Shown here one piece after another: positions 5,270 through 28,514 of a stretch of DNA of 61,363 nt; the stretch's first letter is position 1; every line of letters starts with the position of its first letter. The DNA is from Thermotoga sp. (GTDB taxonomy: Bacteria > Thermotogota > Thermotogae > Mesoaciditogales > Mesoaciditogaceae): the NCBI GenBank assembly GCA_020722015.1, contig DYLQ01000004.1, positions 8,235-69,597 of the forward strand. The letters are read 5' to 3'. The position numbers and the translations under genes are program-made. The notes under the pieces were generated by a model that was given only the letters and a program-made list of their open reading frames with translations, was not told where the DNA came from and did not search any database.

Positions 5270-5701
5270 TTAATTTTGAAAAGTCATAGCGTCATACGTA
5301 GTTCTTTCTTTTGCACCTTCCGTGTAAACAACTATCTTGTTTGGAACGCTTATTATCGTTTCACCTTCTTTGGATATCCATCCCGTTGCAACACTTACCT
5401 GATTTGTTTCAGTTTGAGGGAAAATCCAATTTGTTGAATAAGTTGCCCTTATGGCTCCTGGCTTTGTTTCAAGTGTCATAAGGTATGTATCTCCTCTGTA
5501 AACCTTGTAATATGCGTTTTTGTCAAGAGGTATAACTTCGTAGACCTTTCCGTCGAGCAAAACAACGGCTTTTGCAGCCGATGGTGCGAATTGCCTAAAA
5601 CCAATCCATAACCCAAAACCGAGTATTAGGAATATGAGAAGAATAAGATCCCATTTTGAAAATATCTTATGGCTTGTATTCGTATTTTTGCCACTCTTCA
5701 T
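5270..5701 (-). CDS. NusG domain II membrane protein (EetA-like)
   Basis: A 143-aa protein with one N-terminal membrane anchor (about residues 18-36) and an extracytoplasmic NusG_II-type domain, recognisable from DGKVYEVIPLDKN and the late block TGWISKEGETIISVPNKIVVY. Proteins of this family lie beside Gx-transporter proteins and ApbE in many Firmicutes, and to my knowledge EetA of flavin-based electron transfer loci belongs here. Many members carry a Cys-containing loop just before TGWI; here it reads QTETNQVSVATGWI with no Cys at all. The gene overlaps the end of the upstream apbE copy by 35 nt. Biochemical role unknown. Confidence 0.75.
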   Translation of the reverse strand: MKSGKNTNTSHKIFSKWDLILLIFLILGFGLWIGFRQFAPSAAKAVVLLDGKVYEVIPLDKNAYYKVYRGDTYLMTLETKPGAIRATYSTNWIFPQTETNQVSVATGWISKEGETIISVPNKIVVYTEGAKERTTYDAMTFQN

Positions 5702-6683
5702 TTTTGATTATCTGCCCCTCTTCATTCACAGCGTAATACGCTACTCCCAATTCAGAAGCCATTTTCTCCATCTCGGACGGTCCGGCAACCATAGAAAAAA
5801 CTCCAAAACCGTCTGAAAACACCGATTCTGTTGAGACTGTGGTAACAGATTCAAAGTAGTCGTTGGAATAGCCAGTCTTTGGGTCAAATATGTGGTAATA
5901 TCTTTTGCCATTGACGATTATGTATCTTTCGTAATCTCCAGATGTTCCGACATATCCACTGTAAAGTTTAACATAGGCTATTGAATTATTCGGATTGCCT
6001 CTTGGATTTTGAATTCCGATTATCCATGGCTGATTCCCGTATTTAGGTCCTATTATTCCGACTGTTCCGCCAACATCCACAAAACCCGAAGATTTTGGGT
6101 CATTTTGCCTTGCCATGTTTATAAGCATTTGATCTATGTATCCTTCCATCATACCGTTGAGATCAAGCCACACGCCGTTTAAAAGTCTCACCTCATCTTC
6201 TTTTATCTCAACATTTTTGTATCCAACATGCTCCAAAGCCGTTTGAATTTCCTGAGGCGTTGGCAAATGCCAAGATTTAGTGTTATCCGTGTTGAATCCC
6301 CAAAGCGGAACAAGTCTTCCTATTGTTGGATCGAATTTGCCATTTGTAATTCGAGCAAAATTTATCGATTCTTTTATGACATAGAGTAAATCCGGAGAAA
6401 CTTTAACCCACTTTCCATCTGAATGGTTAAGGTTGTAGAGCTCAGAACCTGCAATCCACGGATCGAAAATGAGATCGTACTTCTGAAACGTATTAAACAT
6501 TTTATCGACTATCTCTTTGGCATTTCCTTTTTCTGTGGCATAAGATATTTCAACGTCGGTACCAAGTTCAACACCGTAACGAGTGTAGTATTTTGGTGGA
6601 GTTTTCGCAAGAAAGACAGATGCAACAACACTTCCCACGATTGCCACGGTAAAAATGGATATTATGATGTTGCGTTTTTTCAT
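5667..6683 (-). CDS. ApbE-family protein, degenerate active site
   Basis: Membrane-anchored paralogue of FAD:protein FMN transferase (ApbE), which attaches FMN to Thr/Ser of extracytoplasmic redox proteins. A hydrophobic anchor lies at residues 3-25. Family landmarks include TNGKFDPTIGRLVPLWGF, GFVDVGGTVG and HIFDPKTGY. Two key sites differ from the norm. The LGGIAKGY flavin-binding block reads LNGMMEGY (near 175-182), and the Mg ligand block SDAFGT reads SDGFGV (Thr to Val near 295). The start at ATG 6683 (after GAAGGGAAG) is preferred over a TTG at 6707. It sits between the Gx-transporter gene and the NusG_II gene. Its enzymatic activity is doubtful. Confidence 0.85.
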   Translation of the reverse strand: MKKRNIIISIFTVAIVGSVVASVFLAKTPPKYYTRYGVELGTDVEISYATEKGNAKEIVDKMFNTFQKYDLIFDPWIAGSELYNLNHSDGKWVKVSPDLLYVIKESINFARITNGKFDPTIGRLVPLWGFNTDNTKSWHLPTPQEIQTALEHVGYKNVEIKEDEVRLLNGVWLDLNGMMEGYIDQMLINMARQNDPKSSGFVDVGGTVGIIGPKYGNQPWIIGIQNPRGNPNNSIAYVKLYSGYVGTSGDYERYIIVNGKRYYHIFDPKTGYSNDYFESVTTVSTESVFSDGFGVFSMVAGPSEMEKMASELGVAYYAVNEEGQIIKNEEWQKYEYKP

Positions 6684-6696
6684 GAAAATCTTCCCT

Positions 6697-7218
6697 TCAT
6701 TTTTCAAATTTTATCCTTTTGACGAGCACACCCGCGACGATCGCATTGGCGATCCCAGAAAAAATTCCGATTATTTCCATGTACGGTAGGTAAGACATGA
6801 TAGCCCATGTTCCTACTATTTGGACTCCTATCAAAACCTGAATAACGTTGTTTAACAAGGCTCCTATTACGCTGTGAAAAATAAGTCCAGCTTTTTTAAC
6901 TGACCAAAAAGAAAGATACATGGCAAAGGTCGATCCTATCGAACCGATAAACCCCATCAAAAAGGTGGGGGCAAGAAAGGTGCCGCCGAGTAAACTTCCT
7001 ATGAGTGATTTTCCGATCGTAAGAACTACAAGCCAAGAAAGAGGGGTATCCGGCAAAGCGTAGACTATCACCATATTGGAAAATCCCCAGCGTGCTCCCG
7101 GGATAGGCACAGGAAATGGAGCATAATTTTCAAGTATATATATCGCAGCTCCGACTGCCACAAGCATGCTGTAAGTCGTTATTTTTTTGCTTACTTTTTG
7201 ATATTCATCATTTCGCAT
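6697..7218 (-). CDS. Gx transporter family membrane protein (EetB-like)
   Basis: Integral membrane protein of the family once called heptaprenyl diphosphate synthase component I, now Gx transporter. Five to six hydrophobic segments are seen, with the characteristic glycine-rich block FLAPTFLMGFIGSIGST and an early PIPGARWGFSNM motif. The start is taken at ATG 7218 (MRNDEYQKV), because a longer reading would overlap apbE far upstream; it still overlaps the preceding apbE stop by 11 nt. It lies between two ApbE paralogues and just before a NusG_II protein, a neighbourhood typical of extracytoplasmic flavinylation loci. The transported substrate is unknown. Confidence 0.82.
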   Translation of the reverse strand: MRNDEYQKVSKKITTYSMLVAVGAAIYILENYAPFPVPIPGARWGFSNMVIVYALPDTPLSWLVVLTIGKSLIGSLLGGTFLAPTFLMGFIGSIGSTFAMYLSFWSVKKAGLIFHSVIGALLNNVIQVLIGVQIVGTWAIMSYLPYMEIIGIFSGIANAIVAGVLVKRIKFEK

Positions 7219-8224
7219 ATTCGTTCCAAAGCGTATTGGTTTGAGTTTGACCATTTTCGTAAACGGCGAAATAGCCAATTCCCAACATTTCTGACCATTG
7301 GTTTATATCATTCGGACCTGCGGCCATAACGGCAGTTCCAAAAGCATCTGAAAGCATTCCGTTGTCCGATATACTCGTTATAGATTGAAAATAATTGTCC
7401 GAATATCCGGTTTTAGGATTGAGAATGTGATAATATCTTCTTCCTCCAATGATTATGTAGCGTTCGTAATCTCCAGATGTTGCTATATATCCTTTGTAAA
7501 GGTTGACGTATGTTAAGGCATCGTTAGAGGTCCCACGCGGATTTCTAACGCCTATGACCCATGGTTGATTGCCATACTTTGGCCCTATTATTCCTATATC
7601 TCCACCTATATCCACGTATCCCGTGGAATTCGGATCGTTTTTCTTTGCCATTTCGACAAGTAACTGAACTGCATATCCTTTTGCTATGCCTCCCAGATCA
7701 ACCCATGCGCCGTTCAAAAGCCTTACCTTATCTCCATCAAACTGTATATTTTGGTAACCCACGTGAGGCAAAACATTGGCAATTTCGCTTGATGAAGGTA
7801 AGTGCCATTTTTTGGAATCGGTTGAGTTGAATCCCCACAGATCAACAAGTCTTCCTATAGTCGGATCGAAATAGCCATTCGTTTTTTGTGCAATCTGGAC
7901 TGAATATTTCAAAACATCAAGTAACTCAGGACTAACTCGAGTCCATTGACCATTTGAATGGTTTAAATTGTAAAGTTCTGAATTAGAAATCCATGGATTA
8001 AAAGTGTTGTTTATGTTGTCCAATTCTTTAAACATCGTTTCAACGACCTGCTTGGCATTTCCCTTTTCAGTCGCGTAGGAGATGGTAACGTTGGTACTCA
8101 ATGCCACACCATACTGGACGTAGTATTGTGGTGGTTTTTTCCAAAAAGCTTCAAAGACAACTATTGCGACTATGAGTAAGATGGAGAAGGTTATGATCAT
8201 GACTCTTATGGATAAAAAATTCAC
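7208..8224 (-). CDS. apbE: FAD:protein FMN transferase ApbE
   Basis: Membrane-anchored flavin transferase that moves FMN from FAD onto Thr/Ser of extracytoplasmic flavoproteins. An N-terminal anchor (residues 7-25) precedes the ApbE domain. The conserved blocks are intact: TNGYFDPTIGRLVDLWGF, DLGGIAKGY (near 177-184) and SDAFGTAVM with Asp293/Thr297 as likely Mg ligands. The family HIxDPxTG motif reads HILNPKTGY, with Asn for Asp. A GTG at 8224 that overlaps the radical SAM stop codon (GTGA) is taken as start; 8260 is possible but would extend 39 nt into the upstream gene. It is about 60% identical by eye to the degenerate copy at 5667-6683, so the pair arose by duplication. Confidence 0.92.
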   Translation of the reverse strand: MNFLSIRVMIITFSILLIVAIVVFEAFWKKPPQYYVQYGVALSTNVTISYATEKGNAKQVVETMFKELDNINNTFNPWISNSELYNLNHSNGQWTRVSPELLDVLKYSVQIAQKTNGYFDPTIGRLVDLWGFNSTDSKKWHLPSSSEIANVLPHVGYQNIQFDGDKVRLLNGAWVDLGGIAKGYAVQLLVEMAKKNDPNSTGYVDIGGDIGIIGPKYGNQPWVIGVRNPRGTSNDALTYVNLYKGYIATSGDYERYIIIGGRRYYHILNPKTGYSDNYFQSITSISDNGMLSDAFGTAVMAAGPNDINQWSEMLGIGYFAVYENGQTQTNTLWNEYAK

Positions 8225-9207
8225 TTTCTTATCGCTATCTGGTAACCGCAATTTGTGCAACTCCCTTCCTCATCAAGACCTACGACGTTAACGTTGTATC
8301 CATTTCTTTCTATAACGGTTTTGCCACACTTGGGGCAGATAGTGTCTTCGTGCATTCCGGGTACATTACCTATATAAACGTAATCAAGATATTCTTTGGC
8401 AACATGCCATAACTTTTCAAGTACGTCCGGATCCGTTGGCGGCTTATCGTACTTGTAATTGGGAAAGTATCGTGAAAGGTGAAGCGGAATCGACCTGTCT
8501 ATCGATCCTAACCATTCGGCAATTCCTTTTGTTTCCTCTTCGGAATCGTTATCTTCTGGCACGATTAAAGTTGTTATCTCAACGTGAATGCCGGCTTTCT
8601 GTGCAGTTTCAACATTTTTCATGACGACATCGCGTTGACCTCCGAGTACTTTTCTGTAATATTCATGATTGAATGACTTGACATCGATGTTCATAGCCGA
8701 GAAGTACTGGGCTAAAAGTTTAAAAGGTTTTTCCTCTATAAAGCCATTTGTCACGAGAACGTTGTTAAGTCCATCTTTCATGGCGGCACGTGCACAGTCA
8801 AGCACATACTCAAACCATACAACTGGTTCCGAATAGGTGTAGGCTATCCCAAAAGAGTTATGATCTTTGGCCAGAGACACCAATTGCTCTGGAGAAAAGT
8901 CCCTGACATGCGGAATAGCATGAGATATTTCCCAATTCTGACAGAAAGGACATGACATGTTACATCCCCAACTGCCTACCGAGAGTATCTCACTTCCCGG
9001 ATGAAAGTGAAAAAGTGGTTTCTTTTCTATGGGATCCACAGAAATTGCTGAAATTTGACCATAATTGAGGGAATAAAGCGCTCCTTCAATGTTTTTCCTT
9101 ACGCCACATATTCCTACCTGACCATTTTTCAGCAAACAATGATGTGGACACAGATCGCATCTTACTTTATCGTCTTTCAGAATCTCGAAAAAAAGTGCTT
9201 CCCTCAT
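8221..9207 (-). CDS. AmmeMemoRadiSam-type radical SAM enzyme
   Basis: Radical SAM protein of the PflA-like group named AmmeMemoRadiSam. It has an N-terminal Cys pattern (CDLCPHHC...GICG), the [4Fe-4S]/SAM motif C82-x3-C86-x2-C89 within GCNMSCPFCQNWE, and a C-terminal zinc-ribbon (CPKCG...CTNCG). Relatives lie beside AMMECR1 and Memo genes and are thought to modify an unknown target; neither partner gene is in this window. The ATG at 9207 overlaps the folE2 stop as ATGA, with AAGGA 9 nt upstream, so it is preferred over the GTG at 9225. Confidence 0.9.
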   Translation of the reverse strand: MREALFFEILKDDKVRCDLCPHHCLLKNGQVGICGVRKNIEGALYSLNYGQISAISVDPIEKKPLFHFHPGSEILSVGSWGCNMSCPFCQNWEISHAIPHVRDFSPEQLVSLAKDHNSFGIAYTYSEPVVWFEYVLDCARAAMKDGLNNVLVTNGFIEEKPFKLLAQYFSAMNIDVKSFNHEYYRKVLGGQRDVVMKNVETAQKAGIHVEITTLIVPEDNDSEEETKGIAEWLGSIDRSIPLHLSRYFPNYKYDKPPTDPDVLEKLWHVAKEYLDYVYIGNVPGMHEDTICPKCGKTVIERNGYNVNVVGLDEEGSCTNCGYQIAIRK

Positions 9208-26399: not shown

Positions 26400-27605
26400 T
26401 CAAAAGATCTGATCCTTAAGATATTTCATGACAAGACCAAATCCTCCAACGTGAAACATGTGCTGCATATTCACAAGATGTTTCATGGGAATAGTCCTGT
26501 ATCCTGCAAAAGTACCGAGGGATTTTACGTTGGCAACTCCATATCTGCTTCCAATGTACACTATGTTTCCATGCAGTTTTAAATCAAGTGCCTTTTTCCC
26601 TCCTCCTTTTACAGCGGCGATCACGTTGTTTGCAGCTATCTGAGCGGATTGCATGGCAGATTCAACGAGTCCCGGCATAGGCTTGTTGGATTTGTCAACG
26701 TAGGAAGCAACATCTCCTATGGCATAGACATTCGGATCCGATGTTTCCATGTATTCATTCACAATGATTCTGCCTCTTTTATCCTTTTTAAGATCAAGTT
26801 GATTTGTAAAAGCGCTGCCCTGAACACCACCAGACCATACAAGTGTTTTTGTCGGTATGAATTCACCCGATTTAAGCGTAAATCCATCTGGCGAAACGTT
26901 AACTATCATTGAATTGGTCTTAACTTCAACACCATGCTCATTCATGTATTTAATGGCTTTATCGACAACATCTGTGTTTTCTATGTTGGGAAGAATTCTC
27001 GGCAAAGCTTCGACTATCATTAACTTAACTGATTTTCTATCAATGCCGTTAACTTTGGAAAGCTTATCGATCCACTCCATCAGCTCTCCCATGAGTTCAA
27101 CGCCAGTAAAGCCACCACCACCAACGACAAACGTAAGCATCTTCTGTTTTTCGTTTGGATCTTTGATATTTTTGACATCTTCAAAGATCTTTTTCACATG
27201 CTTGTTTATCCTTTGCGCATCTTCAAGAGTCCAAAAATATAGAGCATTTTCCTTCATACCGGGTATTCCGAAAAAATTAGGATCGCTACCGACTGCTATG
27301 ACAAGAAAATCATAATCGAAACCTTTGTCATGACTGAAAACCTTCCTGTTAACGAGATCAACCTTTTCAATTTCGGCCTTTTCAAGTTTTGCAGATTTCG
27401 GCAAAACCTTATCGATAGGCATCTTCAAAGCATCTAAAGGTATTCTTTCACAGGCAAATTTGTGTATTTCAGTTCTGAAAGTTTGGAATCCTTCTTTTTC
27501 AAAAAGTGTAATTTCAACGTCCTTCGAGGATGATCTTTTACCCAACGCTTGGACAAATTCAACTCCGGCAAATCCTCCTCCTACGATTACTACCTTTTTG
27601 GCCAT
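26400..27605 (-). CDS. Type II NADH dehydrogenase-like flavoprotein
   Basis: Monotopic NADH:quinone oxidoreductase (NDH-2) candidate, 401 aa. FAD site VVIVGGGFAGVEF at residues 4-16, second Rossmann NADH site FVVGGGGFTGVELMGEL, FAD motif VYAIGDVASY and the quinone-side segment ESAMQSAQIAANNV. It begins 3 nt after a UbiA-type prenyltransferase gene, so quinone synthesis and reduction are coupled at operon level. In Gram-positive flavin-based electron transfer loci an NDH-2 feeds a dedicated demethylmenaquinone pool; that role is inferred. A sulfide:quinone reductase is less likely, as its Cys motifs are absent. Confidence 0.87.
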   Translation of the reverse strand: MAKKVVIVGGGFAGVEFVQALGKRSSSKDVEITLFEKEGFQTFRTEIHKFACERIPLDALKMPIDKVLPKSAKLEKAEIEKVDLVNRKVFSHDKGFDYDFLVIAVGSDPNFFGIPGMKENALYFWTLEDAQRINKHVKKIFEDVKNIKDPNEKQKMLTFVVGGGGFTGVELMGELMEWIDKLSKVNGIDRKSVKLMIVEALPRILPNIENTDVVDKAIKYMNEHGVEVKTNSMIVNVSPDGFTLKSGEFIPTKTLVWSGGVQGSAFTNQLDLKKDKRGRIIVNEYMETSDPNVYAIGDVASYVDKSNKPMPGLVESAMQSAQIAANNVIAAVKGGGKKALDLKLHGNIVYIGSRYGVANVKSLGTFAGYRTIPMKHLVNMQHMFHVGGFGLVMKYLKDQIF

Positions 27606-27608
27606 AAA

Positions 27609-28514
27609 TCACCTCCATGTTCGAAAATTAACTATGATAAGTCCTATTACTAAACCCAATCCGAAGATCAACATCGCGTTAGAAGTTGAAATATCTATAT
27701 TCATGATCGCCTTGCCGTCTATTTTACCACGTGATTTTGAGAAAAGTTTCACCATAATCATCACGTAAAAAGGTATTGAAAGGAAAGAAAGTAAGCTCCA
27801 TAAAGAAATTTTTTGAATTAAAATCATGTAAAACAACAAAATGAATTGAAGAAGAAATATCGCAAGGTAAAGCCAAGCACCGAAAATATCTCCGAACAAA
27901 ATCGTCATGGATTTTATTCCAATCTGCCTGTCATTATCTGTGTCTCTTATCTCATTCGACAGTACTATATTCGTGACCGGAAAGCCTATTATCGAGGAAA
28001 GGATCAACACATCGGGTGATATGGTCCTTGCCATGAGATAATAACCACCCGTTGTGATCAAAAGGCCGTATATCACGAATATGGTCGGGACTGAAAGACC
28101 ATGGTATTTCAAATTAACGGGATCGGCGGTATAAAAATAACCTCCAACTATTCCTGCCAAACCAAAGATCAAGATGTAAGGCGTTGAAAGCAAAATAACC
28201 GCGATTCCGAAAATAAAAGCCACAGCAAAACACGCTATCATTACGTACTTCTCTGCTTTTAGAGTTATCTTTCCATTCATAAGAAGCCTGCTTCCGCTCG
28301 ATCCAAAAGTTCCAGGCCTGTCTATTCCATGTTTGTAATCAAAATAATCGTTGGCACTGTTAGAACCGAGATGGATGAACATCAAAGAAATGGCTCCAAG
28401 CACGTAAAGTACCCATGAAAAATACCCTTCTCTAAACGCAAATAGAGCACCAACTGTGAAGGGTAATAAGCTTGCTCCAACAACATAAGGCCTTGTCGCG
28501 AGAAAATATTTCAT
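27609..28514 (-). CDS. UbiA/MenA-type prenyltransferase
   Basis: Polytopic prenyltransferase, probably acting on 1,4-dihydroxy-2-naphthoate to give demethylmenaquinone. Both Asp-rich motifs are present: NDYFDYKHGID and, in the second half, NEIRDTDNDRQIGIKSM, the latter typical of MenA. Eight or nine helices, 301 aa. It is joined to the NDH-2 gene by a 3-nt gap. Quinones are unusual for fermentative Thermotogota, so this is a notable pair. Other men genes are not in the window, and a role in another aromatic-prenyl lipid cannot be excluded. Confidence 0.85.
   Translation of the reverse strand: MKYFLATRPYVVGASLLPFTVGALFAFREGYFSWVLYVLGAISLMFIHLGSNSANDYFDYKHGIDRPGTFGSSGSRLLMNGKITLKAEKYVMIACFAVAFIFGIAVILLSTPYILIFGLAGIVGGYFYTADPVNLKYHGLSVPTIFVIYGLLITTGGYYLMARTISPDVLILSSIIGFPVTNIVLSNEIRDTDNDRQIGIKSMTILFGDIFGAWLYLAIFLLQFILLFYMILIQKISLWSLLSFLSIPFYVMIMVKLFSKSRGKIDGKAIMNIDISTSNAMLIFGLGLVIGLIIVNFRTWR

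Follow-up and report, generated by a model that had tools for sequence, protein, structure and literature searches.

A remodelled ApbE and an adjoining EetA' without the family cysteines changed together in the Athalassotoga lineage

Why does a heat-loving bacterium carry two ApbE genes in one operon, one canonical and one changed at its conserved active-site blocks? The locus lies in a window of 61,363 nucleotides (the whole stretch of DNA analyzed here), from a genome of the Mesoaciditogaceae that belongs to the genus of Athalassotoga saccharophila NAS-01. The original prediction described an intact copy (here copy A) and a copy with a mutated active site (copy B). The blocks it quoted for the two copies were exact, and all of them lie on the minus strand, which had been left unsaid; no reading frame matching either ApbE motif set was found on the plus strand. 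The gene ends at 5667 and 7208 were also borne out, but the 5' ends given as 8224 and 6683 are only possible internal starts, with the frames reaching 8260 and 6707. The features of the locus are as follows.

7208-8260, minus strand: copy A, a canonical ApbE (FAD:protein FMN transferase) of 350 aa, from PF02424 (9.3e-72) and motifs; a single N-terminal membrane anchor, and the blocks DLGGIAKGY, VDIGGD, ATSGDYERY, YHILNPK, and SDAFGT
7699-7673, minus strand: DLGGIAKGY block of copy A
7351-7334, minus strand: SDAFGT block of copy A
6697-7278, minus strand: EetB of the Gx family (Hpre_diP_synt_I; PF07456, 3.2e-30), an ECF-S-like FAD-exporter component, with the function taken from PMC9973259
5667-6707, minus strand: copy B, the remodelled ApbE (PF02424, 1.6e-64)
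6138-6164, minus strand: DLNGMMEGY block of copy B, with G to N at 184, A to M at 187, and K to E at 188
6063-6071, minus strand: GGT of copy B (in VDVGGT), with Asp/Asn (FmnB N216) replaced by Thr at residue 215
5799-5816, minus strand: SDGFGV block of copy B, with the metal-ligand Thr (FmnB T305, E. coli T284) replaced by Val303 and Asp299 kept
5270-5701, minus strand: EetA' (NusG domain II; PF07009, 3e-16), sharing 35 bases with the end of copy B
5339-5437, minus strand: Cys-less segment of EetA', STNWIFPQTETNQVSVATGWISKEGETIISVPN, with a 7-residue insertion; the canonical form is STC-CVHTGWI-IVCVPN

A profile search of the genome identified copies A and B as its sole ApbE genes. The nearest solved structure to copy A is TM1553 (1vrm). 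Copy B comprises 346 aa from a TTG, or 338 aa from the ATG at 6683, with a membrane anchor at residues 14-32, and it passes the curated PF02424 cut-off by a wide margin (218.4 bits versus 25.6). Its AlphaFold model (pLDDT 94) gave 1vrm as the best PDB match in Foldseek, with a TM of 0.94. Copy B shares with canonical members of PF02424 (TM1553, FmnB, and E. coli Ftp) the fold, the membrane anchor, the catalytic triad, and the residues on the ribose and adenine side of FAD. The sequence surrounding the changed blocks had been called very similar in the two copies; both do belong to PF02424, but the wording was generous, given that the identity is 55% over 335 aa. The UPF0280/DUF375 proteins (DVU1097, 2o34) have a distant ApbE-like fold, but their similarity was much lower (TM 0.55 on the target), and copy B clearly belongs to PF02424.

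We mapped the active site of copy B onto FmnB via alignment to 7esa, in which the published numbering corresponds to the chain index plus 20. FmnB K190, A189, N216 (Asp in copy A), and T305 correspond to Glu188, Met187, Thr215, and Val303 of copy B; D184, S257, R262, H273, and D301 are retained. In this alignment copy B keeps the Asp-Ser-His triad (Asp299, Ser256, and His272), which is fixed in all B sequences, and it also keeps Arg261 and Asp182. Copy B differs from canonical ApbEs in having Val for the site-1 Thr, Thr for Asp/Asn216, Glu for Lys, and Met for the neighboring Ala, as well as in being a second copy in its operon. Bulky Met187 and Phe304 have also been introduced into the phosphate pocket. 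The change of Asp/Asn to Thr in VDVGGT, a third change at the metal site, had been overlooked, as had a matching change in the adjoining NusG_II gene. The metal-site changes behind the description of a mutated active site are thus real, but the description was too strong for a protein that retains Asp299, Ser256, His272, Arg261, and Asp182.

The two substitutions first reported differ in what they mean. In E. coli Ftp, the metal at site 1 is coordinated by the OG1 atom of T284 (PMC4767422), and in the FmnB-ATP complex Thr305 is a metal ligand (PMC8906456). By alignment, the Thr to Val change in copy B takes away a genuine metal ligand, as had been proposed; the position is Val in 5/5 B sequences and Thr in 80/80 ApbEs of other Thermotogota families that cover the site. 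In FmnB, replacement of metal-site residues by Ala greatly reduced or abolished activity (PMC8906456). The Lys to Glu change, by contrast, had been taken as a sign of inactivation and does not serve as one. E169 of E. coli Ftp, the equivalent of Treponema K165, is the protein ligand of the second metal, and the authors of that study expect the Mg requirement for FMN transfer to lie at site 2 only (PMC4767422). Salmonella ApbE also has Glu here (VGEGY). Since Glu is native in the E. coli and Salmonella enzymes, the Lys to Glu change brings in a residue already known from functional ApbEs rather than a lesion, and it was ruled out as proof of inactivity. Copy B resembles these Glu169-type enzymes both in the Glu site-2 ligand at the Lys position and in the Gly that immediately follows the conserved metal-binding Asp, but it has Val303 and Gly302 where E. 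coli ApbE has Thr284 and Asp283. Alignment with characterized ApbEs, which had been suggested as a check, therefore agreed with the prediction on the lost Thr ligand and departed from it on the Glu and the triad. Considered as a possible pseudoenzyme, copy B has changed metal-site residues together with an intact triad and a Glu that is a known metal ligand. For annotation, Lys to Glu in an ApbE should not be equated with lost activity.

We surveyed conservation across the Thermotogota, including 10 genomes of the Mesoaciditogaceae and genomes of other families. ApbE was found in 102 of the 103 Thermotogota genomes. Each of the four Athalassotoga genomes has copy B, as does a single genome from a second genus (G006); the other five Mesoaciditogaceae genomes have a single canonical ApbE each. 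Lys and Thr are both kept in 80/80 ApbEs from outside the family that cover these positions. The B signature is fixed in 5/5 genomes of two genera and absent from every other Thermotogota ApbE examined, which makes it more than a chance pattern. Copy B and the canonical family members are fixed for different residues at 14 positions, nine of which lie in the FAD-phosphate/metal pocket blocks. Among columns that do not vary in canonical members of the family, switches in B were more frequent in the pocket (9/34) than elsewhere (5/110; P=0.0007, an indicative value, as the pocket blocks were picked after residue mapping). As a control, the A clade was compared with the single copies, and no pocket bias was observed (P=0.94). 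The dN/dS values across related genomes were 0.05-0.08 for B and 0.05-0.14 for A. Copy B is under ordinary purifying selection, and its change was selected rather than being decay, so that the earlier view that this is not random decay held up. In the tree, the B clade is monophyletic (100/100), and its sister group is the A clade of Athalassotoga (97/99).

The gene that overlaps the end of copy B has changed as well. EetA' has the NusG_II/DUF1312 fold (AlphaFold pLDDT 77; matches to 4esn, 3ld7, and 4obi with probability 1.00). The three cysteines of the EetA family (C..C..C) are kept in 52/52 other aligned EetAs and missing in 5/5 B genomes, each of which has only one EetA. Like B, EetA' is under purifying selection: its dN/dS was 0.03-0.05, compared with 0.16-0.35 for canonical EetA pairs, and its stem in the tree is long, at 0.99 changes per site. 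The gene order is ApbE-EetA-EetB in 59 Thermotogota loci, versus A-EetB-B-EetA' in the B genomes. As the alignments show, B and EetA' diverged together, with the B pocket rebuilt and EetA' deprived of its three cysteines. In the simplest history, the pair would have arisen by duplication of ApbE-EetA in the Athalassotoga lineage, after which the Cys-bearing EetA would have been lost. Because the duplication and the cysteine loss are one event, the five B genomes are not independent, and the coupling of B with a Cys-less EetA counts as one origin and one apparent transfer.

EetB of Listeria binds FAD and is required for flavin export for flavinylation; eetB adjoins eetA in 3,328 genomes and apbE in 2,169 (PMC9973259). 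Deletion of eetA gave no EET phenotype in Listeria, where the function of EetA is not known (PMC9973259), and an eetA/B double deletion in Lactiplantibacillus impaired flavin-dependent electron transfer, with neither gene alone restoring transfer (PMC9888254). As in the EetA-EetB-FmnB system of Listeria and other Firmicutes (PMC9973259), EetB (PF07456), EetA (PF07009), and ApbE occur together here, the ApbE there using exported FAD. Unlike in Listeria, there are two ApbEs, the EetA lacks cysteines, and the evident target is RnfG instead of PplA. RnfG (DVMTGAT) was the only plausible flavinylation target found in Athalassotoga. A search for a separate target of copy B with the DxxSGAT pattern gave RnfG only, and the remaining in-frame matches look like cytoplasmic enzymes. 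The Rnf operon with RnfG (G000:C41:75074-75346) lies on the window's own contig.

On contig C43 of G006, the genome of the second genus, four genes have their closest relatives in G006's own genus (75-86%), namely FolE2, the radical SAM gene, copy A, and EetB, and B (71%), EetA' (76%), and Maf (75%) are nearest to Athalassotoga. This pattern suggests that the B-EetA' pair moved into the G006 lineage as a block, although an older duplication with differential loss may also account for it. Contamination by a misbinned contig is unlikely; the genes upstream resemble those of genus g3 to roughly the degree that the Rnf genes of G006 do. A distal gene fragment on the same contig (L125, 1-313) is 97% identical to G009, a much closer match than its neighboring genes show, which suggests that recombination took place recently close to the operon.

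The native copy A of G006 (L125/L020, contig C43, 2997-4031) is degenerate, with the blocks DLEGIVKGY, ATSGDHEKY, and SNAFDM. Phylum-invariant residues are replaced in it (Asp by Asn, Thr by Met, Arg by Lys, and Tyr by His), while B is intact. Metal ligands of an ApbE have thus been lost for a second time, independently, and apparently after the B pair entered the genus. No third ApbE exceeded the profile cut-off in G006, in an assembly that is ~87% complete, so one may be missing; the best trace of a hidden copy was only a fragment (E=0.44). That weak match, at G006:C192:4756-5085 in a 248-aa frame, is possibly a UPF0280/DUF375 ApbE-like protein. RnfG of G006 retains the DVMTGAT flavinylation site. 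With A degenerate, no third ApbE, and the RnfG site kept, copy B is the sole remaining transferase candidate in this genome. Any flavinylation of RnfG in G006 would have to come from B, barring a gene missing from the assembly. The proposal that B only helps A, as a non-catalytic partner, loses weight accordingly.

We therefore tentatively favor, with a probability of about 0.45, a co-evolved flavin-handling pair of B and EetA', in which B would retain FAD binding and probably also FMN transfer, with a changed metal chemistry. Copy B would sit at the outer face of the membrane and receive FAD exported by EetB, which would be held by the retained Asp182, Ser256, Arg261, and His272. The metal chemistry would shift from a Thr-supported site 1 to an E. 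coli-like site 2 on Glu188 and Asp299, making B a specialized FMN transferase paired with its own Cys-less EetA'. The signature fixed in 5/5 genomes, the concentration of switches in the pocket, the low dN/dS, the kept triad, the E. coli-type Glu, the altered gene order, the cysteines kept in all other aligned EetAs, and the G006 case count for this reading. Counting against it are the Thr present in all 80 ApbEs of other families and metal-coordinating in E. coli, and the impaired FmnB Ala mutants (PMC8906456). Further points against it are the intact A retained in Athalassotoga and RnfG as the sole plausible target found, which leaves B with no known substrate of its own.

The main rival is B as a pseudoenzyme, a possible though doubtful reading in which it would bind FAD without transferring FMN and would hold or pass on the FAD exported by EetB, or scaffold EetA', leaving A alone to flavinylate RnfG. 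The invariant metal-ligand Thr and Asp/Asn215 are lost, Met187 and Phe304 crowd the phosphate pocket, and the B gene lies between eetB and eetA with the FAD-side residues kept; the four Athalassotoga genomes have an intact A beside B, and no second target was found. However, the retained triad and the E. coli-type metal ligand speak against a dead enzyme, and in G006, where the partner A is degenerate, a dead B would leave no transferase.

It is rather unlikely that B is a membrane-anchored FAD-binding non-transferase that forms, with the Cys-less EetA', a new EetB-fed flavin carrier or electron-transfer module. If this were true, the three cysteines of ordinary EetAs would serve the metal chemistry of canonical ApbEs or the flow of electrons, and EetA would gain its first functional assignment. 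We consider it improbable that B, partnered by EetA', has become a different enzyme or a sensor, such as a pyrophosphatase that cleaves FAD in a metal-dependent way or a protein that binds some other nucleotide. Treponema Ftp, with the same fold, can hydrolyze FAD, and one residue turns E. coli Ftp into a pyrophosphatase (PMC4767422); the remodelling of B is clustered in the phosphate pocket, but the adenine- and ribose-side residues are conserved and there is no sign of another ligand. A functionless duplicate in decay, for which nothing speaks except the altered catalytic-site positions, is refuted by the dN/dS and the fixed signature, and the intact overlapping frames and apparent co-transfer with EetA' also stand against it.

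The EetA cysteines and the ApbE metal site were altered jointly, on a single occasion, and the two genes apparently also moved as a unit. The joint change and apparent joint transfer make a functional link between ApbE and EetA directly testable, and the paired change offers a route to the function of EetA, a widespread protein. Copy B also probes which ApbE metal site FMN transfer needs.

Two ApbE genes were also observed in a genome of another Thermotogota family (G010; L043 and L063, contigs C195 and C40). At the Lys and Thr positions the two genes appear canonical; one has EetA-EetB beside it, and the other was found without EetA or EetB alongside. Within the window, a gene for an Ndh2-like pyridine nucleotide oxidoreductase (26400-27605, minus strand) adjoins one for a MenA/DmkA-like prenyltransferase (27609-28514, minus strand). 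The Ndh2-like gene occurs in 4/4 Athalassotoga genomes and in 0/6 of the remaining family genomes. The pair (26400-28514) was ruled out as a requirement of copy B, being present in 4/4 Athalassotoga genomes but missing in G006. Ndh2-like and MenA/DmkA-like functions also occur in the EET locus of Listeria.
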